A stretch of 64,000 bases of DNA from Cyanodermella asteris (taxonomy: Eukaryota; Ascomycota; Lecanoromycetes; Ostropales; Stictidaceae). Positions 48,298 to 64,000 of the stretch are shown here, piece by piece. Every line of letters begins with the position of its first letter. The first letter of the stretch is position 1. Below the pieces are notes generated by a model. That model was not told the DNA's origin, did not search any database, and worked only from the letters and a program-made list of their open reading frames with translations. Location of the stretch: assembly GCA_900618795.1 (NCBI GenBank), contig UYJD01000020.1, positions 209,827 through 273,826 of the forward strand, in the 5' to 3' direction. A program made the position numbers and the translations under genes.

Positions 48298-49509
48298 TCA
48301 GTGCAATTCTTTAACGGCCTTACGCATAGCTTTGCCATTCTGATTCAACCATTCCCTATCACGATCGATGACATACTCGAATCGCTTCGCAATTTCTTCT
48401 GTCTATCAGGCGTCAGCATGGTCCAGATCTCGGCGCAAATGGAAACACCTTCCGCTTTCTCGGCGGTCTTGCGTGCCTCAATGCATCTTTGAAGCGCATG
48501 ACAGAGCTTCATCGCTATATTTGCATCTGCTGATGGCTAAATTTGTCTCCAAGCCCTCATTTGTAAGTTGTACTCTTCGATGAGCTCTTCATCGTCGTCA
48601 GTATTGGCTTGAGGTTGGAGCATTTTGACGTCTGCAATGCAATAACTTGCCTTGCTGCTGCTTCCCAAATCATAGTGACCCTGCTCTAGGTATCCTACTG
48701 TGTGTCTGAAGCTGGCAGCGTGGCTGCCGGCGCCGAGGTTGCCAAAACTTGCAGCAACGTCCCGGATCGCCCTTCCCTGTCTAGCAGCTGTGCTCACCTG
48801 GTTCTGGATGTCTTGACTTTCGTTGAAACCAATCTCGGGATGGGTTACGGCATACAATGCCATGCAATGCACAAGGAACGATTGTTGGTCCACGAAAATT
48901 TACAAACTTTCCAGGTTTTCTCAACTTTTTGGACCTCTGCTGGAAAACCCAGACTCAGTGCTCTCAACGGGTGTGATACAATTGTTGCCAGCTGCGAGTT
49001 GACAGCTCGTCGGTTGGCAGTCCAGGCCACATGACTGATCGCAATCTCAAGAATGTGCTCGTGACCCGGGTCTGAAGAGCTGAACACGGCTGCAATGATT
49101 ACACCAAGCCAGTCAGCTGCACCCGAGTCAGCCACGCCACCGTACGAAACAACATTCTTCATAAGGTTAGGAAGCTCATTTCTGAATCTTTGCATGCACT
49201 CAGACTTTGCATCGTCGCCTGCCCAGAGCTCTCGTGCTGCAACTGCGAAGAATCCCAACTGACGGCCGCGAGCGAAAGGGGCATCGGTCCTTGCGCTGTA
49301 AATCTAGCGAGTTGGTTCTCAGCATACTCAGTAAGGACCCTGCGCAGCTGGTCATTGCTTTGCATTGAGCTGGGCGGTGGATCTATTTGTCCTTTCGATG
49401 TGGTGTTGATTTGTGAGGAGTTTATTGTCCTGCGAGATGTTGTTGCGTTAAAGTACTGACATTGGGCAATAACAAAGGTGAAAGGTCCATAGAGACGTGA
49501 GACTTGCAA
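48298..49509 (-). pseudogene. Decayed tandem paralogue of the gene at 49809-50969
   Basis: Read in order on the minus strand, three frame segments match the neighbour: DPPPSSMQSNDQLRRVLTE...NQLARF; then GRQLGFFAVAARELWAG and DWLGVIIAAVFSSSDP (neighbour: GYKLGMFAIAARAAE, DWLGVLIAAVLTGSE); then QGRAIRDVAASFGNLG (neighbour: RGLSIRDIAASVNQLK). The C-terminal exon after a matching intron (GTGTTT..GACAG, branch GCTGAC) gives RFEYVIDRDREWLNQNGKAM, like YDYVKELERRQDFLNQ, with a stop at 48298. Breaks: frame slips near 49315 and 48890 and an in-frame TAG near 48537 after MRAWRQI. It was once a full copy of about 370 residues and is now not translatable as one. Family function unknown; divergence from its neighbour is already high, so duplication preceded the decay. 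Confidence 0.7.
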
Positions 49510-49808: not shown

Positions 49809-50969
49809 CTACATCATCGGGTACAGACGATTGAATGCCTTCCATTTTTTGGCTGCGTCTTTCAGCATGTCAATGTTGCACTGGTTCAAAAAATCTTGTC
49901 TGCGTTCGAGCTCCTTGACCTGAATTCGTCAGTCCGGCACGACGAGCATGTGAAATGGCATCTAGCTTACATAATCATAGGCATTTGACCTCTCATTTAT
50001 GCAGTCTTTGAGTCTTACCACTGCATTCTCAACCCATTTCGGAGCGTCCAACTCTTCGGTACCCTCATTCCATTTTCGTTGTTGCGCGTGGCAGTCATCA
50101 AGGAATTTATCATGATTGGTCTCGGACATCTGATCGATAGGACCTGACAGCAGTTCCAGACACGAGTATTTGCTACTACTGGATGAATCCGGCTGAAACT
50201 CGCTTGTCTCCAGGTGACAGCAGACAGGCCCAAACAGGTCCTTAAACCTTGATGGCTTAAGCTGATTAACCGATGCTGCGATATCCCGGATTGATAGTCC
50301 TCGTCGGATTTGGATTTTAACCTCCTTCCAAAGCCATTGGTAGTCTTCAGCAGCGACGCTCCTGTCGATTACGGCGTGCATCGCTATGCGTGGAATGATC
50401 ATCTCCAGAAACTGGCGAAGCAATTCGCAACGGTTCCAGGCATCTTCGACCTTGTCCCTTGCCCCCGGCGCAAGCTCAGCCAGGAATGCCAACGCCATCC
50501 CACCGAAGTCGAGACTGAGGTCAAGGCGATTTGCTCCGAATGTCACAAAATGTACGGCGGTCATCGTGTTGCGCTCGGAACCTGTCAGTACAGCCGCAAT
50601 CAGGACGCCGAGCCAGTCTACAACATGGAAACAGTCCGCTTTTCGCATCTCGTCTTCGTGGTATTTGGTCAGCCAGCTCATCACGGCCGATGGTGCGCTG
50701 GGGTCGGTCTCGGCCGCCCGCGCGGCAATGGCAAACATTCCCAGCTTGTAACCGCGATCGAGGATTGGATATTCGTGTTTCGCAAAGCTGGCGACTTGGT
50801 CGCGGGCGCACTTCAACTGCAACTCGGTCGAGGGCGGCAGTTCGTCGGGCAGCGAACTGCTCACGTCCTCGCCAGAGGAGTTGTGCGCTGGAAATGCTTG
50901 AGCGCGCTTGGGGTCCGGTTGCGTAGGTGTCTCGGGGTCGACATCCAAGCTCCGTTTCAGGGCAGACAT
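49809..50969 (-). CDS. Unrecognised protein, intact member of a tandem pair
   Basis: Two exons, 50969-49971 and 49919-49809, with a 51 bp intron (GTAAGC donor, ACTGAC branch, TTCAG acceptor), giving 369 residues. Start at MSALKRSLDVDPETPTQ; the frame is open upstream to 51176, but that stretch is leader-like. The first 50 residues are polar with a possible basic nuclear signal (PDPKRAQ); the rest is predicted helical with no transmembrane or signal segment. Conserved between this protein and its decayed neighbour: the GYKLGMFAIAARAA block, DWLGVLIAAVL, RGLSIRDIAAS and the C-terminal helix YDYVKELERRQDFLNQ. I do not recognise the family. The pair is oriented head to tail, with the NRPS and RSC4-like genes next to it on the same strand; whether that matters is unknown. 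Confidence 0.72.
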
Positions 50970-51741
50970 TTCGATTTGGGTCAAGAACCGGTATCGGATC
51001 TGGCTGAATAGGAAGACGGCAGGGGTTTTTTTAGTGGACAGACAGTGACTCGAGCTGACACGAGAAGCGTGACGATGTCGACAGCCTGGCAAGAAACCGA
51101 CTTTGCTGGGTGGTGGCAGGTCAGAACAGGGGAGAGAGAGAGAAATCAGCTGGTGGATCTCAATTGAAAGCCCCATCGCCTGTCACGTGCCCAGATATTG
51201 GTAAAGATACGGCGGCAGGAGGTCAATCATAACTGAGCCCGCAAATAGGATAGGTGAGGCCCTGGTGAGTTGGAATATGCTCACGCACGAGTCCTTGCTC
51301 GGGGCGCTTGATACATGGCAGTGGTTGTCAATTGAACGTACCTCGAATACTCCAACACCAGTAGCTAAGTACATGGCTCTACCACTATCCACGAATTCAC
51401 CCGTAGAGCCAGTCACAGAAGTAGCATTCAAAGGAGGAGAAGACCTCGTGCGCAACCACTTCTGTTGGCCCGCCTTGAGCGCCCTGAGTTTGAAGACATT
51501 TATACATCCAAGACCGCGGCCGGTCAAAGCTTGAACCCAGCTGTGCTCATAGCGCGAAAAGACATCCATGCATAAAAATCGTGAAGCCCAATTCCAGTGT
51601 CCTCTATAGCCTCGCAAGGCACGCGACCACCGCCATGGGCCTATGGAATCCTGAAACTCCATCTCCAGCAGTCAGTTGATACCACAAACACGACGGAGCG
51701 CGCATCAGATCGCCCTTCCCAGTCCCAAATAGCGTGTTCCC
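50970..51741. other. Intergenic region, no gene supported
   Basis: A 159-codon minus-strand frame (51183-51662) is open but has no family features and no codon pattern like its neighbours. The leader of the 50969 gene lies at the left end. Confidence 0.5.
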
Positions 51742-54171
51742 CTAAGCCCTCTCTCTGTAAATAAACAAAGTGTACTTTTCGAAATCAACATCAACCGCGT
51801 TCCCAACTTTCGGAGCGCCCCTCGCCGGGCCAGCCAACATCCAGACCTCAACCCGGTTGATCTGGCCTTCCATCAGTGGTAGGTCGTACACTGGTCGTCC
51901 TGGCTCGACTTCGTCCAAGTGACGGCGATACTGCTCCTGGACCGTCGCCATTTTGTGGCCTTGAAGCGTGACGCCGACTTTTGTGGCGCGGTTTTGACTC
52001 GTCAGGTCGGTGGTCTTGATGGTGGGCGCGACGCGGATGAAGTTGTGAGCATGGGGCACGGTGAATGTGAAGGATTGTTGGGTTAGGTGCTCGGATGGGA
52101 GGAAGGTGTAGGCGGGCTTGTCGGGATCTTGGACGGAAGGGTGGGCCACTACATCGAGGGATTGGATTAGGGCGTCGGCTGCGGCTAGGGACTGTTAGAT
52201 TTGCATTACTTCGAAAAGGACGATAGGATCGAGCTTACTCTTGCCTGCTGGTCTGACACGATTGTCGAAGACACCCGTAGGATGTGATGAGTAGTACGGA
52301 GCTGCAGGAGGATAGGGGCTTGCGCTCGTCCGAGCCGCGATAGCTGGAGGCGGCATTCCGACAGCCGGATGGCCATTCGACATCCCGTTCAGCTCTGAGG
52401 CTGGGAGGCTCGGGGTTGATATCTCTGGCTTCACCCCATTTGTGGCGAGAGGTGGGGATAGTGACATACCAACTGGCGTCGGTGTGTGGCCGTCCGGAGC
52501 AGCAGCACTACTAGGCCGACCTGGCACATGGGTGACTGATTTGATCATTTCTTGCTGCCTCTTGAGAGCTTCAGTATCAACAGTAACGCTGGCAGGGGTC
52601 GGTTTCGGGCCGACGGTCAGTGTGATCCTTGGATTCGCCGCTGCTGCTGGCTCCGGGGTACGTGTCGACATGTTCAGCTTGACTTTGGGCCGGTTCGGAT
52701 CGGGTATCACTGCTTTCGCCTCTGCAACTCGCTTGTTGAAATGTCTCTCCAGTTGCCCCGCAAGGACCGAGATCTCACTACCATCTTCGTTGTAGGTTCG
52801 AGCGTTGCGCCAAATGTATCCGACCTGATGCTCAAAGTCCGCCCATGTCTTCATAAGGCTCACACCCGTCGGCTCTGCGTGTCCCTGCTTGCCGACCGCC
52901 TTCTTCTTAAGGCCATTTAAACTTTCGGGGTTCTTAATGGTCTGATAGTAGTCTTTCAGAGCTCGAGAAGGAAGTTGAAGGAAGTTTCCTGCGATCAGCT
53001 CGCCATCGTCGTTCTTGAGTTCACTAAGCTCATTCAATATCTGTTCCTGAGCCTGTTGGAATGTCTTCCCCGAAAAGTCGTTCTTCACTGACTGTGCTGG
53101 CGCTACAGGTGTTTGGCCGTCGCGTGGGTTGGGATCTTTCGGGCTGCGAAGCTTGAGTGCTCGTTTCGGTCTCTCGAGGTTCTGCTGCGGAGCTGAAATA
53201 GGGGTCGGCGTTGGAGGTGGTAACGGCCTTGAGAACACGGCCTGGTTGGGAATGATCTCTCCTGGCAGAGGTGTAGGCAGGGCTGTATAGTTCGGATCTG
53301 CGTATGCTGGGTTGATCTCTTTGAACTGGTTGGAAACTAGCTTGCGGATCTTCTCTGCATCGTTGTGAACCTCTGAGTTCTTTTCATTGAAGGTCTTTGC
53401 ATTCGATATCATGCGCTTGAGGTCCGCCTCGATGGCAGACATGTGTGGGTATTCATAGCGTCTCAGCTTCTCCTGTAGTCACCATATCAGCATCCACTTG
53501 TTCGTACAGTCCGAGCTGTACCCAGAATCGCTCAATCGAGCAGGCACCGTCTCACGTACCTCGATAGTCTCTAAAGCAATAGGTAATTGTATGACTTGGT
53601 AATACTCCGGAATCTCGTTCTGCAAATGGTCAACTCTTCGATCCTGGTATCGAATAGCTCCTCGACAACATACAGGGTCTGGCAGGACGTGGAAATGCGT
53701 CGCGATTAAGTGGTCCCTAGTTCCAGCATCAGCGCCCGTTCATTCTCGCTCGGTATCACGTTTGTCCTCCTCTTGAATCGATCCAATTTGACGTACTGCT
53801 TGTCCCTCGAGCTCTTCAACTTCTCCAGAAACTCCAAGCCCTGCTGGGTCGTGCGCTCAGGCGTCTCCGTTGCATTGGCGATGATTTGCTATACAAACGA
53901 TCAGTTCCAGGAAACCTCAAAAAACAGGAAAAAGGTAAGCATGTCCAAAGGAAGCCGTGAGTGACTTGCGCAGGCATCACGAGCGCATGTGTATAGTCTC
54001 GCACGAGCCGCAACAGCTTTCTGATAATTGTCCGTCGCAGTGTTCCCGCGCAGCTCCTTGAATGCTCCTTTGCGTGGGTAGTCAACTTACGTCGGGCCCT
54101 CTGCGGCGCTTGCTGTCGGGAGTGTCAATGTTGGCGATGGAGCCGTGCACGGCCTTGCGCTTCAAAGACAT
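51742..54171 (-). CDS. RSC4: RSC4-like tandem bromodomain subunit of the RSC remodelling complex
   Basis: Six inferred exons: 54171-54091, 53888-53797, 53716-53674, 53619-53560, 53472-52239 and 52184-51742, about 650 residues. All joins keep frame and use GT-AG. The first bromodomain is built across exons 2-5: GLEFLEKLK..., HLIATHFHVLPDP+NEIPEYYQVIQLPIALETIE+EKLRRYEYP, ending DLKRMISNAKTFNEKNSEVHNDA. The second (FLQLPSRALKDYYQTIKNPESL ... VGYIWRNARTYNEDGSEI) follows after a basic linker. Bromodomains bind acetyl-lysine on histone tails; each here has the Asn of the NA/YN motif. A Pro/Ser-rich region and the fungal C-terminal domain (VEVWMLAGPARGAPKVG...LFIYRERA) complete the protein, as in Rsc4. 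Intron 1 (54090-53889) is long and may hide one more small exon. Confidence 0.85.
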
Positions 54172-54644: not shown

Positions 54645-57600
54645 TCATTCGTGCAGAGCACCAACAATTTCCTCCGCAAAACCTCCCAACATCTGCAAAA
54701 GTTCATCCGCACCTTCATTCCCAATCTTCGACGGATCCGCGATCAACCACAAGCGCAGAACCTCATTCTCAGGGTAAACCAAGACAGTGGTCCATTCTGG
54801 CGTCGCGACAAGCTCGTACCAGCCGAGTTTCAGCGTGTCCTCTCCAAACCTCAATTCCGGATAAAAAGCCATGTTTCGGAAGTGCACGGCAGACTTGTAC
54901 TTTGCATCTTCAGGCCATTGAGTGCAATTCTTGACCATGTCTGGCCAGTCCAATCCCTCGAAAGAGGTGCGTTCGTCGACCTGTTGAGCAGATGACGACA
55001 CCAGCTTCCGGAGCATGTCTTTTCTGGATAGAGCATTACTATTCGACTCGAGGTTGAACCTCACGGGCAACATGTTCACGCATGGTCCAATGACGGAGTC
55101 GAGTCCAGGCAGAGTGCCGTTCCGGCCAGTAGTGACATTGCCAAAGACAACATCCCCATGACCGGCAAGCTGCTGCAAGACCAGCGACCAGGCGACGTTG
55201 ACCACAACAGTCGGCCTCGTTCGCCTGTTGTCCGTCGCGCTGTGGAAGTTGGGTATGGCGTATGTTCGGAGAGTCCTGACATGAGATCCGCCAGGCCTGA
55301 ATGACAGCGCTGCAGTTGGCTGTGGGACTCCCTCGAGTTGTTTTGACCAGTAGTCGCGAGACTTTTCCGCCGAGTGAGCGCGGTGCGACAAGAGTTCGGT
55401 CCACTTGAGAGTATTGCTGACTGTCTCACCATTGTAAGCTTTGGCAATGGAATGCAAAACGCGGATCTGGGACCAGCCATCGTATTGGCTGTGTGACATG
55501 CGAAGTATAATGCGTCTCTTTCCTCCCTCCGTAGTGACAAGAGTCAACTTGGTGAAGGTGTCACTGACATTCGCCCGACGACAATCTTGGAAGCAGAACC
55601 TGTTGGAATATGTTGTGATTTGTTCGTCGGTATGCACCTCTTCGTGCACCAGTGGTGCGTCGCGGAGGATGATTTGGTAGTATTTGCCATCCTTCTCGAC
55701 GAACCGCGCGCGCAGACATTGGAATCGCTGCACTATAGCACGAGTCGCGGTCACCAGCTTCTCCCAGGAAATTTGAGGGCCAATATCTAAGAAAGCATAC
55801 TGCAGACCCAGTGGTTCCTCTTGGTTGTGCATGTAGTCAATTTGGAAACCATTCGCGGGAAGAATGTCTTCAATCTGGTCCTTGGAGACGTTCAAGGTGG
55901 AGGGAATGAAGTCTCCAGCCAACTCTTCGACGCTGACATGTTTGGATACCAGCTGATAGGGTCGGTAGGTAAGCAGATCACTCTTAGGCTTTGCATTTTC
56001 TGTCATCTTCTCTGCTTGTTGTGAAAGTATAGGCGACTCAAAGACGTCACTGCCTCGCAAAAAGTATGCATTGCGCTGGACTGTCGTGATGAGGCGCATG
56101 ACGGCAATGGAATCTCCGCCGCGCTGGAAAAAGTCATCTTCGCGAGAGATGGTGCTTGCATCAATGCCGAGCACCTGCGCCCAAAAGCTGGCAAGCTTCT
56201 GTTCTCTAGGCGTGCTCAACGGAACGAACGGAGCTTGCGCTACGCTGGAACTGATCCACACAAGCTGATCGAGTCGAAGCTGATTTCCGATATCCCGCAA
56301 ACGACGACGATCGATCTTACCAGAGCTAGTTTTGGGGACTGCAGAGATCGATACGAAAGCTTCGGGTCGTAAGTAAGATGGCAGAGACACTTCCAAAGCT
56401 TTTCTGAGACTGGGAACCAGATCGCGGAGCTTCTTCTCCAAGGTTCTTGTAGTATGCTTGCCTGAACGATCGGCTGCGAAAAGGAGAAGCATTTGTCTCT
56501 TGGCGCCTCCCTGCTTTACATCAATTTCCACAATATCGGCAACAATCATCATGCCAATATTCTCAAGCCCACGGACGAAATCCTCGACTTCGACAAGATT
56601 GACGAGCTGACCTCGGAGCTTGACTTGAGAGCCAAGGCGGCCAAGGAATTCAATGCTGCCATCCGCAAGATAGCGACCTTGATCGTTGGTTCTGAAAAGA
56701 GTGCCCTTGCGTCCCGCCACCAACTTAGACCCTGACAGAAGGAACTGTGGGTCGACCACAATCGGAAAGTGATCTGTTTTCATGAGGTATCCCGCTCCAA
56801 CAATTGGTCCTTCAATGAGGATCTCGCCGACAGAGCCGACAGGTGCAAGTTTGTCTGGATTCCCAACTTGTGTCAGCCAGAGGTTAGATCCTCGCCCGTA
56901 ACCTATGTTCCCAGCTTCACTTGGATGCTCGAGTGCAGCTGACACGGTGGACATGATCGTACACTCTGTGGGACCGTACACATTCACGAGACGCACTCGT
57001 CGACCCCACGTCTCAACATCTCCTCTCGTCATGGGCTCGCCAGTCAAGACCAGCGTTTTCAAGGCTGGCACCGCATCGGGATCGATTACCCTTGACACAG
57101 ATGGAACGAGCTGGGCCCAGTTGACTCTGTACTCGTTGATGAAAGAACTCAAGTCCCCTTGTAATGCGTCGTCGCTGGGCACGCAGAGACAGCCACCATG
57201 AGTGGTTGTGTAGATAAAATTGAAGATGCAGGCATCAAAGGAGTAGGACGAGCTATCAATGCTCCTTGTTTCTGGGCCACAGCGGAGGCCATCATCGCCG
57301 GCTTGGTAGTGCACCGCGCTGGCCAAGTTTGTGTGCGTGATGAGGACTCCTTTGGGGGTTCCAGTACTACCACTGGTGAACACTGCATAGGCAAGGTCGC
57401 TGTTCTGAAGGTGTCGTCGGTCGTTGAGGGGTTCCTTAGCCACGGAGCTCTGATGCTGATTACCGGTGTCCGCATGCAGACGAAACGACTCATCGACTAG
57501 CACCGCTCGTGGCGCAAGGCGAGATGCAAGATCTCTAGTTTCCTGGGAGCAGAGAATCGTTTGAGGGTGCATGTGCTGCATTAGAGATCGGAGGCGGCCT

Positions 57601-60600
57601 TCCGGATGTTTCCAATCGAGCGGCACGAAAGCTGCACCGGCTTTCATGACAGCAAGCATAGAAATGTTCGCAAACTTTGATTTTGGAAACAGCATTGGTA
57701 CAAAAGATCTTGGGCCAATGCCTGAAGCAACAAGATTGTCCGCCAATTGACTTGCCGATGATACAAGCTCAGCGTATGTCAATTTCCCATCACAAGCATC
57801 AATAGCGACGCTATCAGGACGTTTGCTGGCGTGCTGAGAAATGATATCATGGACATACTCAGTGGCTCTGGCAGATGGCACACGCTCGTTCCACCTCCAG
57901 ATAGCGTTTAGATCGACATCTGAAACAACGTTGATTTCGCCCAACGGCCGAGATGGCTGTGATCGAACTGCATCAGTGAACTGTCTGATCAATTGCGCCC
58001 ATTGTTGAAGGACTCGCTGCAGCGATCGCGTGGGAAGGATCCTGTCGTTAAAGCTTGCTTTCACCGTTGTGGTAGCGCCGACGGGGAGTATTTCCATCAT
58101 GAGGGCATATTGATTGAGCACAGCGTGCTGGTTCGGAAAGCCTTCGATCTGAGTCTCATCAAGGAGCTCCAAAATACTCTCTCCTGGAATCGCTTGTGTC
58201 TTTTGCTCGCTCGGTGGTTGAACAACCAGCACAGTCTGAAACTCGCAAGCCGCTGCAGACGATGCATCAATCTTGCGAATCGCTGGCACACCAAAATGCT
58301 CGTGAGGGATTGATCGTACGGTCATGTCGCGTACGTCTTTGAGAATCTGCCCGACTGTTTGAGCTGAGTCGACATCAATGAGGATCGGAATGGTTGTGAT
58401 AGCCGGGGCCATCATAGATTCAATGTGGTCGACAGGTGCATTGCGCCCAGTCAGGATTGCTCCAAACGATTGTGTCGAATTGCCTGTCAAGTGGGACACA
58501 AGCAGAGCCCAGGTTGCGTAGATCACAGACGTCAGAGTAATGCCTGGTGGCAACGATGAAAGGCTGACGTCCAGTGTCTCTTCTATGTATGCTTCCGCGC
58601 TTCGCTTGAAAGTAGCATTAGGTGCCGGATATGTTGTCGCTTTATCCCCATTCTTCAGTTCCTGTTTCCAAAAATTCGAGGAAGCAGTCCCATTAATGCC
58701 AGCAATATATTGCAGGAAGCTTTGCATGTCAGGTGATGGCGAAGGCAGTGTCTCCCCAAGGTAGATTGCGCGGAGCTCTGTCTCAATCATTTGTAGCATC
58801 CACCCGTCGTACATGGTGTGATGGATGGACCACGCTAGTTGCCATTTTTCAGCCTTTTGAATGAGAGCCCACTTCGTGAGAAGCTTGTTGGCGCCCATGT
58901 TTGTGGAACGGACGTCGGAAAGGAAAGCTTCGAGGTCGGAATACCGCTGCCATATGAAGTTGCCTTGCAAGACTATTTGATGGAGTCCCCTTCCGTCGAG
59001 GTCGACGATGCGTGTTCGTAGAATGCGATTCCGTGACACGACGTGTGCCCAAGCTGCCTGCAAGCGCTGGAGATCAACTTGAGTAGGAATTTCGTAGAGG
59101 CGAATACTCATGAAAGCTTGTGGATCCTTGACCGTTGCCGCAAGCATGGCTTCTTGGAGCGGCGAGCATGCATACGCATCCTCAATCAAACTCATGTCTT
59201 CGAGGCCACACTTTTGTGCAACTTCGATGCGAAGATTCAGAATATCTAGCGGCTTGCTCAGTCCACTGAAAGCCTCAAGAAAATCCTGCACAATTGTTTG
59301 GCTTTGAGTATCCGCGATGGGACGTTCCTGCGGGGTCGTTTCACTCGACTGGATCTTGCGTGAAATCTGAGCCAGTGTTGGTGATGAGAAGAGCGTCGCA
59401 ACGCTCAAGTCATGCCCTTCAGCTCGTGCTGCCGCAGCAAAGCTCATAGCAGATATTGAGTCTCCGCCAAGATCGAAGAAATCATCGTCTGTGTCGATGT
59501 CTTCTGCAGACATACCCAAGACCTCTCCCCACAGTCTGGACATTTCCGCTTCTGCGGGCGTTTTCGAGGATCTATTTGCTAACCTGCTTTCCTTATGACC
59601 GTGGTAGGTTTGCGAGCTTGTAGCCGTCTCGGCAACCTGCTCGAGCCTCTTCCTATCTACCTTGCCGTTCTGGGTGTGGGGAATGGAGCTGACGAAGAAG
59701 TATGCCGCAGGGATCATGTACTGTGGCAGAATTGCGCGCAATGTATCATCCAACTGTTGCACTTTCAACAATGCAGGCGCATCAGGGTCCACCAATGCGC
59801 AGTCCTGAGACCTGGCTGCACTGATAACGCTCAAGAACGCCACGAGCTTTCGTTCTGACTTTTCGCCAACGGCAGCGCATACCACAGACCCGATGACATC
59901 GCCCATGGATGCTTTGACATGATGCTGGCATTCCTCAAGCTCGATTCTTTGTCCTCGCAGCTTTATCTGCAGATCTTTGCGCGAGACGAAATGCAGATTG
60001 CCTTGAGCGTCGTATCGTGCGAGGTCACCAGATTTGAAAGCGACATGGTCGTAACGCTCACGGCTGGATCGAAGCCAAGGAAGGCCTGTGACAAAACGGT
60101 CCCGAGTGAGAAGCTCGTTGTTGAGATAGCCTTTACCAACGTTTGGACCTTCGATCAGGATCTCACCGACGGAGCCGATTGGCACGAGCCGTTTGTGATT
60201 TTCTGGATTAACCAACCAGATCGAGCAGCCGCTCCCTCTTCCGATGCCTTCATTCTTGAAATCGCTCGATAGACCTGGGTTCATGGTAGACACCGATGTA
60301 CACTCGGACGGACCGTAGCAGATGACTGTGCGGACTTGGGGTCGCCAGTCGTCAAAGTCTCGGTGATCAACGAACTCGCCGGATAGAATCAAAGTCTTCA
60401 GCGTCAGGAGCTGCTGCGGTTTTATCAAACGAGCTACCGAAGCAGTGAGCTCGGTCAATGTCGCGGCGTAGTGATTGATTGCCCCAACAAGGTTGTTTTT
60501 CCTCTCGTGCTCGCTCGGAACGCACAAAGTGGCGCCTGATGCCAGCGTCTTGAAAATCATATTCCAACTGACATCGAAGGCATATGATGCAAACTCGAAT

Positions 60601-63600
60601 GCTCGAGTGTCCTCTGTGAAGCCTGACTGGACAGTCTGATGGACGACTGCTGAGCACAGAGCTTGATGAGATTGTAGAACTCCTTTTGGTACTCCAGTCG
60701 ACCCCGATGTCATCAGGACACATGCCACATCGTCGGGAGATGGCGTTGAAGTGGTGCTAGTGGCGAAACGAGTCTTCTCGTAGCAATTCTTGACACAGTC
60801 TTCTAAAAGCAGCTTCTTCAGTCCAAGCGAGTCGACTACATCGAGGGATGACTGGTCTACGATGACAACTTCGCTGCGGACCTGGGAAAGGATCGCTTGA
60901 AGACGACCAGCTGGCTGCGTCGCATCAAGGGGAAGGAGTGTCGCGCCAGCTCGAAGTATACCAAGCGCAGCAACAGGAACATAACCGGACTTTTGCGCGA
61001 TGAGCGGAACGATGCAGTCATAGCCAGATACTGCGCCTTGTACGTGACTGGAGATAGTGGCCGACAGTTCGTCGAGTTCTGAATATGAGATCCTGCAGTC
61101 CCAGGCATCTATCGCGACCTTCCCGAAATGCTGGTGACGGATAGATTCAAGGAGGAGTTCGTGAAGGAGTCGCGGGGATGGGCTTGCCACTTCCGAGTTC
61201 CACGCCCAGATATCCTGCATGTCTTCTTTGCCGATGCAATCTATCTCATTGACCCTTGTCCTGGAGTATTCACTGCTTATTGAATTGATGACTGCCGTCA
61301 GGCGGCCGCCGAATCGTTCCATCTCGCGTGTGGTCAGCAGATTGGGGTCAAATATGCTCTCAAGCTCCAGTCCGTCCTTCGTGGGCGTGAAGAACATGAC
61401 GAGACCAAACGTGTGGAACGACTCATCCCTACCATGTGCTTCATAGGAGGAAGTCCTGATGGTCTCTTGACCTTGTGATCCAAAATGAGGTGGATTCACC
61501 ACGATGAGGGTCTGAAACTTGCAAGCAGCTTTCGTGTCGCTATTCATCTTCTCGATCTTGCTTGTGCCCACGTGCTGGTATGGCTCCATCGACGAAGTGT
61601 TCTTTTCAACACTGGCGATCAGCTGCGAGACGGTCTGGCTGTTGTCTTCAAGCCGAACTCTGATCGGCACTGGGGTGATGGTTGGGCCCACCATTTGTTC
61701 GACCTCTGGTATACAAGCGATACGACCAGCAAGCGTGGCAGCAAAGATGATATCGTCACTCTCAGTAAGCTTTGAGACTATCATTGCCCATGCGGTATGA
61801 ATGAGTGTCTGTAAACTTGATCCGTGTGAGTTCGTGATCTTCAAAGTTTGGCGGAGTGTTTGGGTAGGCTGCACTTGGTAAGACCTGGAGGGTAATTTTG
61901 GGAAGATCGCTCGCGGCCCGGGAGATTCTAGGCGGCTTTGCCAGAAGTCTTGCGCTTTAGCTTTGTTCTGTGAGTTGAGGTACTTGACAAAGCCGCTGAA
62001 CTCTGGCGGCTTGTGTATTTGAAGGCCATCGTAGGCTCTGCGGAGTTGGTCCTCGATCAAGACGACAGACCAACCATCGTAGACCGAGTGATGTACAGTC
62101 CAAGCAATCTTCGCCCCAGCTGAGTGGGATTGCGCTTTGATGATAGATAGCCATGAGAGTGGACCTCCTGCCTTGATCTCGGCCTCGTCGTCAACGTAAG
62201 CATCAATATTGTTGTACGTTTTCCAAGTTGTCTCGCGGACTACGACTTGAAGCAGACCCATGGTTCTGGTCTCGACAAATCTCGTCCTCAAGATAGGATT
62301 AATATCAACAACTGATTGCCAGGCTTTCACAAGCCGATCAAGATTTAAAGTGGAGGGCACCTCGAAGATCGACCGTGTGATATACGCTCGGGGTTGTCTC
62401 ATGGTAAGCGCAAACAGCTCGGTCTGTAATGGTGTGCATGGGTACACGTCGAGTATGGATTCCTTCTCCACTCCGCAGACAGCTTTAGCATCCTGTATAA
62501 TCTGTTCCAGTTGATCGGATTGTATCATGGAGAATGTGGTGGGCGATTCCGATGATGAAGAAACGGACCGTGTCATGGCAGCCATTGCTGATAATCTGGT
62601 GTGGTTCATGATATCCTTGAACAAGAGCATAAGGTCATGCTTTCGGGCAAGATTTGAGAGCTTCATGACGGCGATTGAATCTGCGCCTGATTCAAAGAAA
62701 TCACTTTCAGGGCATAGGATGAGTTGTGGTCTGTCCAAGGCTGTGGCCCACAGCTGCTCCAGGACCGATTCCATCTTCGTGAGAGGTCTATGAACTTGGC
62801 CCAGTGAGTCCGAAGTCTCGTCACTGGTCGTGGACTTGAGCATCTCCCCACCGAGCTTCCTAAGCTCCATGCGATTGATCTTTCCTGATGGAGCTTTCGG
62901 GATGCTCGAAAGAATCGAGAAAGACTCGGGAATCATATAAGGGGGGAGCTTGGTCTTCAGATGCATTCGAGCTCGAGGTATGTCTAAGTTTGACCCGGAT
63001 GGATTGGCGCAGAATGCGACAAGCGCAGGTCGACCAGTCGGATGAATAACCACTTCGCAGACTACTGCAGGAGATTCAGGAAGGGCGTGCTTGAGTTGGT
63101 ATTCGATTTCCCCGAACTCAACCCTCTGACCTCGGAGCTTGACCTGCGTATCGCCTCGGCCGAGATACTGAATCGATCCATTTGCTGTATATCTCACCAA
63201 GTCACCGGTCCTATAAAGTCGCCCGTGCCTACCAGGTCGTGACTTGGATCCCCGCAGTAGAAATTCTGGATCTTCGATGAATACTTGTGCTGTCTTCTCG
63301 GGCTGTTGATGATAGCCCTGAGTCACCAATGGTCCCTCAATCACCATCTCTCCGACTGCACCGAGAGCAACGAGCTCATTGTAGTTTGAAGGGTTGCAGA
63401 CCCAAGGCAACACGCCACTTCCCTTGCCAATATTTGATGCGGCCTCCGGCCTTGAGAGCGGGGTGAACATGCAGAGAGGCGTAATCTCTGTGGGACCGTA
63501 GGCGCACCACAGATCGAGGTGGTCTTTCCACATTGACACATCCAATGGCGTAACGGCCTCTCCGCCTAGCCACATTCTCTTGACCGTAGGAACCTCTCTT

Positions 63601-64000
63601 GGATTGATCGTGCGAGCGACTGACGGCGTCAGGAAGAGCTTCGTGGTGTTGAAAGACGTAATGTCCCCGGCCAGATTGTTCATTCGGCTTTCCTGCGATG
63701 GTGTACACACGGTAGCCCCTGCAACCAGACCCAGGTACCAATGCCAGATGCACGCATCGAAGCTATGGGACGAGAAATCATACACTCTGTCTTCGGGAGT
63801 AAAGCCAAGGTCTCGCACCTGCTGAACACTCGCTGACGCCAAGTTTCGATGAGCGACAACAACCCCTTTAGGTACGCCAGTAGATCCGCTCGTGAAGCAA
63901 ATGTACATAGTTCGCTTGGTATCAGTCGAATCGACCACATCTAGACTTGCTGTCCCCAGGGTAGTGCATCTGCTTCGCTCAACCACAAAAACGTTGTTCA
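54645..64000 (-). CDS. Nonribosomal peptide synthetase, C-terminal part (A-T-C-A-T-C-A-T-CT), 5' end off the right edge
   Basis: One uninterrupted frame of over 3100 codons, entering from the right edge inside an A domain. Approximate positions: A1 64000-62830 (FTSGSTGVPKG, AYGPTEIT, YRTGDLVRY); T1 near 62680 (FFESGADSIAV); C1 62540-61260 (HHSVYDGWS); A2 61130-59640 (MTSGSTGVPKG, CYGPSECTS, FKSGDLARY); T2 near 59460 (FFDLGGDSISA); C2 59270-57960 (HHTMYDGWM); A3 57890-56260 (FTSGSTGTPKG, VYGPTECTI, FRTNDQGRY); T3 near 56110 (FFQRGGDSIAV); terminal C domain 55930-54645 (MSHSQYDGWS). Each module loads one amino acid; at least three are added. SHSQYDGWS fits the SHxxxDxxS signature reported for fungal terminal domains that release the peptide by cyclisation, so a cyclic product is likely. 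Oddities: GAD for GGD in T1 and TND for TGD in A3. No thioesterase or reductase. Amino acids and product unknown. Confidence 0.95.
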   Translation of the reverse strand, partial: NNVFVVERSRCTTLGTASLDVVDSTDTKRTMYICFTSGSTGVPKGVVVAHRNLASASVQQVRDLGFTPEDRVYDFSSHSFDACIWHWYLGLVAGATVCTPSQESRMNNLAGDITSFNTTKLFLTPSVARTINPREVPTVKRMWLGGEAVTPLDVSMWKDHLDLWCAYGPTEITPLCMFTPLSRPEAASNIGKGSGVLPWVCNPSNYNELVALGAVGEMVIEGPLVTQGYHQQPEKTAQVFIEDPEFLLRGSKSRPGRHGRLYRTGDLVRYTANGSIQYLGRGDTQVKLRGQRVEFGEIEYQLKHALPESPAVVCEVVIHPTGRPALVAFCANPSGSNLDIPRARMHLKTKLPPYMIPESFSILSSIPKAPSGKINRMELRKLGGEMLKSTTSDETSDSLGQVHRPLTKMESVLEQLWATALDRPQLILCPESDFFESGADSIAVMKLSNLARKHDLMLLFKDIMNHTRLSAMAAMTRSVSSSSESPTTFSMIQSDQLEQIIQDAKAVCGVEKESILDVYPCTPLQTELFALTMRQPRAYITRSIFEVPSTLNLDRLVKAWQSVVDINPILRTRFVETRTMGLLQVVVRETTWKTYNNIDAYVDDEAEIKAGGPLSWLSIIKAQSHSAGAKIAWTVHHSVYDGWSVVLIEDQLRRAYDGLQIHKPPEFSGFVKYLNSQNKAKAQDFWQSRLESPGPRAIFPKLPSRSYQVQPTQTLRQTLKITNSHGSSLQTLIHTAWAMIVSKLTESDDIIFAATLAGRIACIPEVEQMVGPTITPVPIRVRLEDNSQTVSQLIASVEKNTSSMEPYQHVGTSKIEKMNSDTKAACKFQTLIVVNPPHFGSQGQETIRTSSYEAHGRDESFHTFGLVMFFTPTKDGLELESIFDPNLLTTREMERFGGRLTAVINSISSEYSRTRVNEIDCIGKEDMQDIWAWNSEVASPSPRLLHELLLESIRHQHFGKVAIDAWDCRISYSELDELSATISSHVQGAVSGYDCIVPLIAQKSGYVPVAALGILRAGATLLPLDATQPAGRLQAILSQVRSEVVIVDQSSLDVVDSLGLKKLLLEDCVKNCYEKTRFATSTTSTPSPDDVACVLMTSGSTGVPKGVLQSHQALCSAVVHQTVQSGFTEDTRAFEFASYAFDVSWNMIFKTLASGATLCVPSEHERKNNLVGAINHYAATLTELTASVARLIKPQQLLTLKTLILSGEFVDHRDFDDWRPQVRTVICYGPSECTSVSTMNPGLSSDFKNEGIGRGSGCSIWLVNPENHKRLVPIGSVGEILIEGPNVGKGYLNNELLTRDRFVTGLPWLRSSRERYDHVAFKSGDLARYDAQGNLHFVSRKDLQIKLRGQRIELEECQHHVKASMGDVIGSVVCAAVGEKSERKLVAFLSVISAARSQDCALVDPDAPALLKVQQLDDTLRAILPQYMIPAAYFFVSSIPHTQNGKVDRKRLEQVAETATSSQTYHGHKESRLANRSSKTPAEAEMSRLWGEVLGMSAEDIDTDDDFFDLGGDSISAMSFAAAARAEGHDLSVATLFSSPTLAQISRKIQSSETTPQERPIADTQSQTIVQDFLEAFSGLSKPLDILNLRIEVAQKCGLEDMSLIEDAYACSPLQEAMLAATVKDPQAFMSIRLYEIPTQVDLQRLQAAWAHVVSRNRILRTRIVDLDGRGLHQIVLQGNFIWQRYSDLEAFLSDVRSTNMGANKLLTKWALIQKAEKWQLAWSIHHTMYDGWMLQMIETELRAIYLGETLPSPSPDMQSFLQYIAGINGTASSNFWKQELKNGDKATTYPAPNATFKRSAEAYIEETLDVSLSSLPPGITLTSVIYATWALLVSHLTGNSTQSFGAILTGRNAPVDHIESMMAPAITTIPILIDVDSAQTVGQILKDVRDMTVRSIPHEHFGVPAIRKIDASSAAACEFQTVLVVQPPSEQKTQAIPGESILELLDETQIEGFPNQHAVLNQYALMMEILPVGATTTVKASFNDRILPTRSLQRVLQQWAQLIRQFTDAVRSQPSRPLGEINVVSDVDLNAIWRWNERVPSARATEYVHDIISQHASKRPDSVAIDACDGKLTYAELVSSASQLADNLVASGIGPRSFVPMLFPKSKFANISMLAVMKAGAAFVPLDWKHPEGRLRSLMQHMHPQTILCSQETRDLASRLAPRAVLVDESFRLHADTGNQHQSSVAKEPLNDRRHLQNSDLAYAVFTSGSTGTPKGVLITHTNLASAVHYQAGDDGLRCGPETRSIDSSSYSFDACIFNFIYTTTHGGCLCVPSDDALQGDLSSFINEYRVNWAQLVPSVSRVIDPDAVPALKTLVLTGEPMTRGDVETWGRRVRLVNVYGPTECTIMSTVSAALEHPSEAGNIGYGRGSNLWLTQVGNPDKLAPVGSVGEILIEGPIVGAGYLMKTDHFPIVVDPQFLLSGSKLVAGRKGTLFRTNDQGRYLADGSIEFLGRLGSQVKLRGQLVNLVEVEDFVRGLENIGMMIVADIVEIDVKQGGAKRQMLLLFAADRSGKHTTRTLEKKLRDLVPSLRKALEVSLPSYLRPEAFVSISAVPKTSSGKIDRRRLRDIGNQLRLDQLVWISSSVAQAPFVPLSTPREQKLASFWAQVLGIDASTISREDDFFQRGGDSIAVMRLITTVQRNAYFLRGSDVFESPILSQQAEKMTENAKPKSDLLTYRPYQLVSKHVSVEELAGDFIPSTLNVSKDQIEDILPANGFQIDYMHNQEEPLGLQYAFLDIGPQISWEKLVTATRAIVQRFQCLRARFVEKDGKYYQIILRDAPLVHEEVHTDEQITTYSNRFCFQDCRRANVSDTFTKLTLVTTEGGKRRIILRMSHSQYDGWSQIRVLHSIAKAYNGETVSNTLKWTELLSHRAHSAEKSRDYWSKQLEGVPQPTAALSFRPGGSHVRTLRTYAIPNFHSATDNRRTRPTVVVNVAWSLVLQQLAGHGDVVFGNVTTGRNGTLPGLDSVIGPCVNMLPVRFNLESNSNALSRKDMLRKLVSSSAQQVDERTSFEGLDWPDMVKNCTQWPEDAKYKSAVHFRNMAFYPELRFGEDTLKLGWYELVATPEWTTVLVYPENEVLRLWLIADPSKIGNEGADELLQMLGGFAEEIVGALHE

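Follow-up and report, generated by a model that had tools for sequence, protein, structure and literature searches.

The nonribosomal peptide synthetase (NRPS) gene at one end of the stretch of DNA analyzed here (64,000 nucleotides, referred to as the window) very probably encodes the synthetase behind the astins of the plant-dwelling fungus Cyanodermella asteris (Lecanoromycetes, Stictidaceae). The enzyme is a single protein of five modules, and its terminal condensation-like (CT) domain would close the product into a ring. We put the probability of this reading at about 0.92. The anatomy of the gene, the families to which its neighbors belong and the CT-like sequence at its end are all seen directly in the DNA.

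Astins, chlorinated peptides which were first taken for plant products, are of anticancer and immunosuppressive interest (PMC12836360). Astin C, made by C. asteris, is cyclic and consists of five residues, namely two 2-aminobutyrate (Abu), (R)-beta-Phe, Ser and dichloroproline. The fungus also makes astins F and G; when 1% NaCl is added, its cultures yield astins A/B, I and undescribed ones as well, and it has been argued from such cultures that the fungus alone hydroxylates astin C to astins A/B (PMC12836360). The preliminary description had held the product to be not identifiable, a view that is overturned by the host and the neighboring gene families, which together point very probably to astins.

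Architecture of the synthetase

The window corresponds to C17:209827-273826, contig C17 being one of 25 in an assembly of 28.54 Mb; the contig names C5, C8, C11, C15 and C17 are distinct from the names C1-C5 given below to the condensation domains of the NRPS. The 3′ part of the gene occupies window positions 54645..64000 on the minus strand, where an open frame of 3117 aa (54645-63998) is still open at the window edge. Along the contig, this frame covers C17:264471-281510 and reaches window-equivalent position 71,684. It is 17 kb long, with 5680 codons including the stop, 0 N and 0 internal stops, and codes for 5669 aa from the first Met. Pfam matches to 3108 aa of the window frame comprise three AMP-binding, three Condensation and three PP-binding domains, at E values (2.4e-144, 9.5e-105 and 1e-34) from which we conclude that the NRPS call is not chance. 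Adenylation (A), carrier (T) and condensation (C) domains are present in both halves of the protein.

The open frame and its Pfam domains bear out the earlier claim of a large NRPS running off the window. Three A-T-C modules had been described, and three do lie in the window, but the whole gene has five, ordered by motif positions as A-T-C throughout, with five domains of each kind. The window holds only the last three. Within it, all on the minus strand, the third module consists of A3 (62850..64000, cut by the window edge and continuing to window-equivalent 64313), T3 (62565..62771, recognized by its motif FFESGADSI) and C3 (61245..62507, HHSVYDGWS), and the fourth of A4 (59640..61157), T4 (59340..59567, FFDLGGDSI by Pfam and motif) and C4 (57915..59237, HHTMYDGW). 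Tyrocidine synthase 2 is the best relative in the PDB of both C3 (7.8e-27) and C4 (1.1e-22). The fifth module comprises A5 (56295..57827, with FRTND as its A7 motif), T5 (55995..56207, FFQRGGDSI by Pfam and motif) and the terminal domain C5 (54648..55922).

The N-terminal 205 residues contain a weak C-domain remnant. With a profile built from C1-C5 it scores 9.5 bits, but 148/200 shuffles also matched that profile, the best of them at 5.1 bits. An upstream continuation of the gene was considered and dropped, as the next frame (C17:282951-287681) belongs to an ABC transporter. A role for the five-module enzyme as a siderophore synthetase was likewise dropped: every C domain here follows an A and a T domain, unlike the T-C repeats of such enzymes.

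The specificity codes of the A domains, assigned from motif positions under PheA numbering, are DVALAGVCVK (A1), DIHDVSAICK (A2), DAWFWGAPLK (A3), DVNEISCSVK (A4) and DAFQVTVIMK (A5). No two of them agree, and the A domains are 30-40% identical to each other. The motifs reported to differ between the modules in the window do so exactly as claimed, reading FDACIW, FDVSWN and FDACIF. Because no two codes are alike although astin C has two Abu, the codes do not confirm the assignment of residues.

Genes beside the synthetase

The astin link has its basis in the host and in the neighboring genes, which lie beyond the window on C17. Past the ABC transporter come two frames, presumably exons, of an enzyme with the aromatic amino acid lyase fold (PF00221; C17:289159-291070), the first of which carries ASGDL and with it the ASG triad. 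The second piece, which is the one compared with the PDB, has phenylalanine ammonia-lyase (PAL) as its best match (1.9e-69), with phenylalanine aminomutase chains following at 2.3e-60, and sequence alone does not separate lyase from mutase. Next is a class IV aminotransferase (C17:291860-293218) with branched-chain aminotransferases as its best match, which is one of five PF01063 matches in the genome. DUF3328/UstYa (PF11807) sequences follow in five pieces at four loci (C17:295613-304527). One locus (C17:303718-304527) has both HxxHC motifs in one frame, and in another (C17:298917-299297) RINHC takes the expected place of the second HxxHC copper motif. An MFS transporter (C17:296772-298490) and a second ABC transporter (C17:305542-309207) complete the set, after which come Sel1-repeat and SRF-type genes. 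The five modules and ring-closing end of the NRPS, taken with the PAL-fold enzyme, the aminotransferase of branched-chain type and the DUF3328 proteins, fit the astin set.

On the other side, the downstream neighbor of the NRPS is a bromodomain protein (window 52195..53478, minus strand), which we take as lying outside the cluster and marking its left border. Further along the minus strand, the frames at window 48845-49303 and 49962-51182 share, by eye, LGxFAxAAR and DWLGVxIAAV, and the longer is without a Pfam match. The interval C17:263800-333799 contains 25 N, starting at 319919, which presumably mark a scaffold join to the right of the cluster. No Zn2Cys6 regulator was found near the cluster, the two of 103 listed matches that fall on C17, at 6.3 and 61.8 kb along the contig, being far from it.

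It is improbable that the synthetase makes some other, unreported cyclic pentapeptide and that astins come from another locus. Such a reading would account for A-domain codes that do not mirror the two Abu of astin C, and it draws on the fact that the astin link is made through host and neighbors. Against it, the genome has five loci with C domains (counting a weak one on contig C15), and at none of the others are five C domains listed or DUF3328 matches found close by. The nearest DUF3328 match is about 270 kb away on C15, 430 kb on C11 and 895 kb on contig C5, and contig C8 has none among the matches listed. The PAL-fold and branched-chain aminotransferase-like enzymes also suit the building blocks of astins, although one other PF00221 gene exists in the genome, on contig C8.

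The terminal domain and product release

The last C domain had been described as lacking the first His of its active-site motif, and SHSQYDGWS is indeed what is found at window 55470..55496 on the minus strand; TqaA has SHSQWDGVS at the same place. The corresponding motif is HHxxxDG in C1, C3 and C4 and HHxxxDS in C2. C5 shares 18-20% identity with C1-C4, compared with 25-31% among those four. It is directly preceded by T5, with its serine in GGDS, and directly followed by the stop at 54645, and so forms the extreme C terminus of the protein.

Compared with all PDB chains, C5 is matched best by four TqaA CT sequences, at 72.8 to 68.5 bits (best E value 2.7e-19), with the best bacterial domain at 40.8 bits. 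For C1, C2, C3 and C4, the top match is a bacterial condensation domain, with TqaA behind. Two C domains of an NRPS on contig C8 that also carry SH motifs served as controls: the internal third domain matched McyB first (5.7e-23; TqaA at 3.4e-6), and the terminal domain gave two matches only, AmbE and McyB, with no TqaA match at 0.001. TqaA, the sole reference CT domain in these comparisons, was thus the top match for 1/7 C domains, and since it leads for neither SH-bearing domain of contig C8, an SH motif alone does not produce this result. Judged by its best solved relative, C5 is not an ordinary LCL domain.

C5 was also placed in a tree of 16 rows. It includes 12 of the 15 genomic C-domain matches, leaving out the third domain of the contig C5 locus, which has an in-frame stop, and two pieces from contig C15. 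The proposed check by phylogeny, as far as this tree reaches, did not overturn the CT assignment: C5 pairs with the TqaA CT domain (support 89/86) at a point where long branches meet, and C1-C4 lie on a separate branch with a domain from the contig C5 locus (96/97). Support for the pairing, which the program marks as long branches coming together, rises to 99/98 when the three longest rows are removed, and shuffling of labels gives the same clustering in 65/500 cases. Without C5, TqaA joins the SH-bearing terminal domain of the contig C8 NRPS (93/94); without TqaA, C5 falls near the domains of that same enzyme with low support. A single clade of C1-C5 is rejected by the AU test (p 0.0006), for a group that was named after the tree was seen.

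A thioesterase exon hidden behind C5 had been raised as a possibility and was dropped, as the stop directly follows the domain, the next gene downstream is that for the bromodomain protein, and none of the seven PF00975 (thioesterase) matches listed in the genome lies on C17. The same holds for the 22 matches listed for PF07993 (reductase), of which 0 are on C17.

From the SHxxxDxxS pattern, it had been concluded that the domain is of the cyclizing type. The assignment is supported by the TqaA relationship, the AU test and the lack of a thioesterase or reductase among the matches listed on C17, but the motif as sufficient proof is rejected. It proves little alone because the internal third C domain of the contig C8 NRPS carries it too and has McyB as its best relative; published work also reports SH motifs in domains that are not terminal or of the CT type (PMC6518819; PMC10212144). 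This emphasizes that an SHxxxD motif needs a test of position and of profile before it is read as a cyclizing domain.

The weakness of the motif, together with the moderate support and long branches of the C5-TqaA pair, is what would favor C5 being a degenerate or ordinary condensation domain that does not cyclize, with release by hydrolysis or by a trans-acting enzyme. We consider this very improbable in view of the lead of TqaA for C5, the lead of bacterial domains for C1-C4 and the contig C8 third domain, the lack of a cis thioesterase or reductase domain after C5, and the cyclic nature of the known astins of this host (PMC12836360). The comparisons support reading C5 as a macrocyclizing CT domain, closer in sequence to the known CT domain than to LCL or DCL domains. 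A pseudogene or assembly artefact is scarcely credible, since small departures from the usual GGDS, HHxxxDG and TGD (GGES in T1 and HHALYDSW in C2, both beyond the window, GADS in T3 and TND in A5) are set against a 17-kb frame without internal stop or N in which the serine is kept in 5/5 T domains and the A10 lysine in 5/5 A domains.

A predicted pathway

Our reading of the cluster as that for astins suggests a scheme for the product, the order of its residues, its cyclization and each tailoring role. Each A domain would load one residue onto its own T domain, and C1-C4 would form four peptide bonds. C5 would then take the pentapeptidyl thioester from T5, with attack by the N-terminal amine, so that a cyclic pentapeptide might be released without a thioesterase. 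The phenylalanine-lyase-fold enzyme may act as an aminomutase to supply (R)-beta-Phe, and the branched-chain-type aminotransferase may supply 2-aminobutyrate. DUF3328 copper enzymes are candidates for proline dichlorination and Abu hydroxylation on the ring, and the ABC and MFS transporters for export of the product.

More tentatively, and with somewhat less than even confidence, we suggest that the cluster itself supplies every step of astin biosynthesis. Its products would then include a fungal phenylalanine aminomutase descended from eukaryotic PAL and a DUF3328 enzyme that hydroxylates Abu under certain conditions. If this is true, no plant enzyme would be needed for astins A and B. With the gene map beside the synthetase, the debated question of whether the fungus needs no partner to convert astin C into astins A/B can be put to the test.

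Other loci in the genome

A second NRPS (C8:319638-330164), that used above for controls, has four C domains, of which the last three are spaced at 1.7 kb, with the SH motif in one internal domain and the terminal one; from its layout, we take it to resemble a siderophore synthetase. In a third (C5:968502-976436), a stop interrupts the frame of the third C domain, and this domain, which precedes an A domain, has the motif SHALMDAAS; the stop points to an intron or decay. A 3397-aa frame at C11:594501-604376, in which single C and A domains are accompanied by a terminal reductase match, is probably a PKS-NRPS hybrid. A search for 5.8S rRNA as a barcode gave 0 matches, with 39 of 1016 candidates scored. 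PF11807 is found genome-wide, with 68 pieces among the matches listed, spread over many contigs of the 28.5 Mb and possibly belonging to RiPP clusters.

Comparison with known systems

Schafhauser 2019 (PNAS) is said to report astins from C. asteris and to print the astin cluster; that cluster shares with the present one the host and a five-residue cyclic product. Since a five-module NRPS with a CT domain and DUF3328-linked astin clusters have been described, and this cluster is reportedly in print, we regard the find as already known. TqaA is a trimodular alkaloid synthetase, unlike the enzyme here with its five modules. Its CT domain (PDB 5DIJ, 5DLK, 5EGF and 5EJD) is nevertheless the best solved relative of C5. 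DUF3328 genes are a further shared feature, astins being named among products whose clusters hold them (PMC12048977).

The cycloaspeptide synthetase of Penicillium likewise has five modules and a terminal CT domain, which reads SHAQYDGVS, and a methyltransferase gene is adjacent to it (PMC5941284), whereas none was noted beside the astin-candidate NRPS in the frames scanned. The remaining interest lies in the DUF3328 enzymes behind the hydroxylated astins, and in how chlorination and hydroxylation are shared among the four loci. Cyclochlorotine, a pentapeptide, offers a parallel for this. Its cluster in Talaromyces islandicus likewise has DUF3328 genes next to an NRPS (CctN), the product being a chlorinated cyclic peptide that contains 2-aminobutyrate (PMC12435403; PMC9144378). 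Three DUF3328 proteins are named there (CctO, CctP2 and CctR), compared with four loci here, one of them with RINHC; CctP2 dichlorinates (PMC9144378) and CctR hydroxylates 2-aminobutyrate (PMC12435403).
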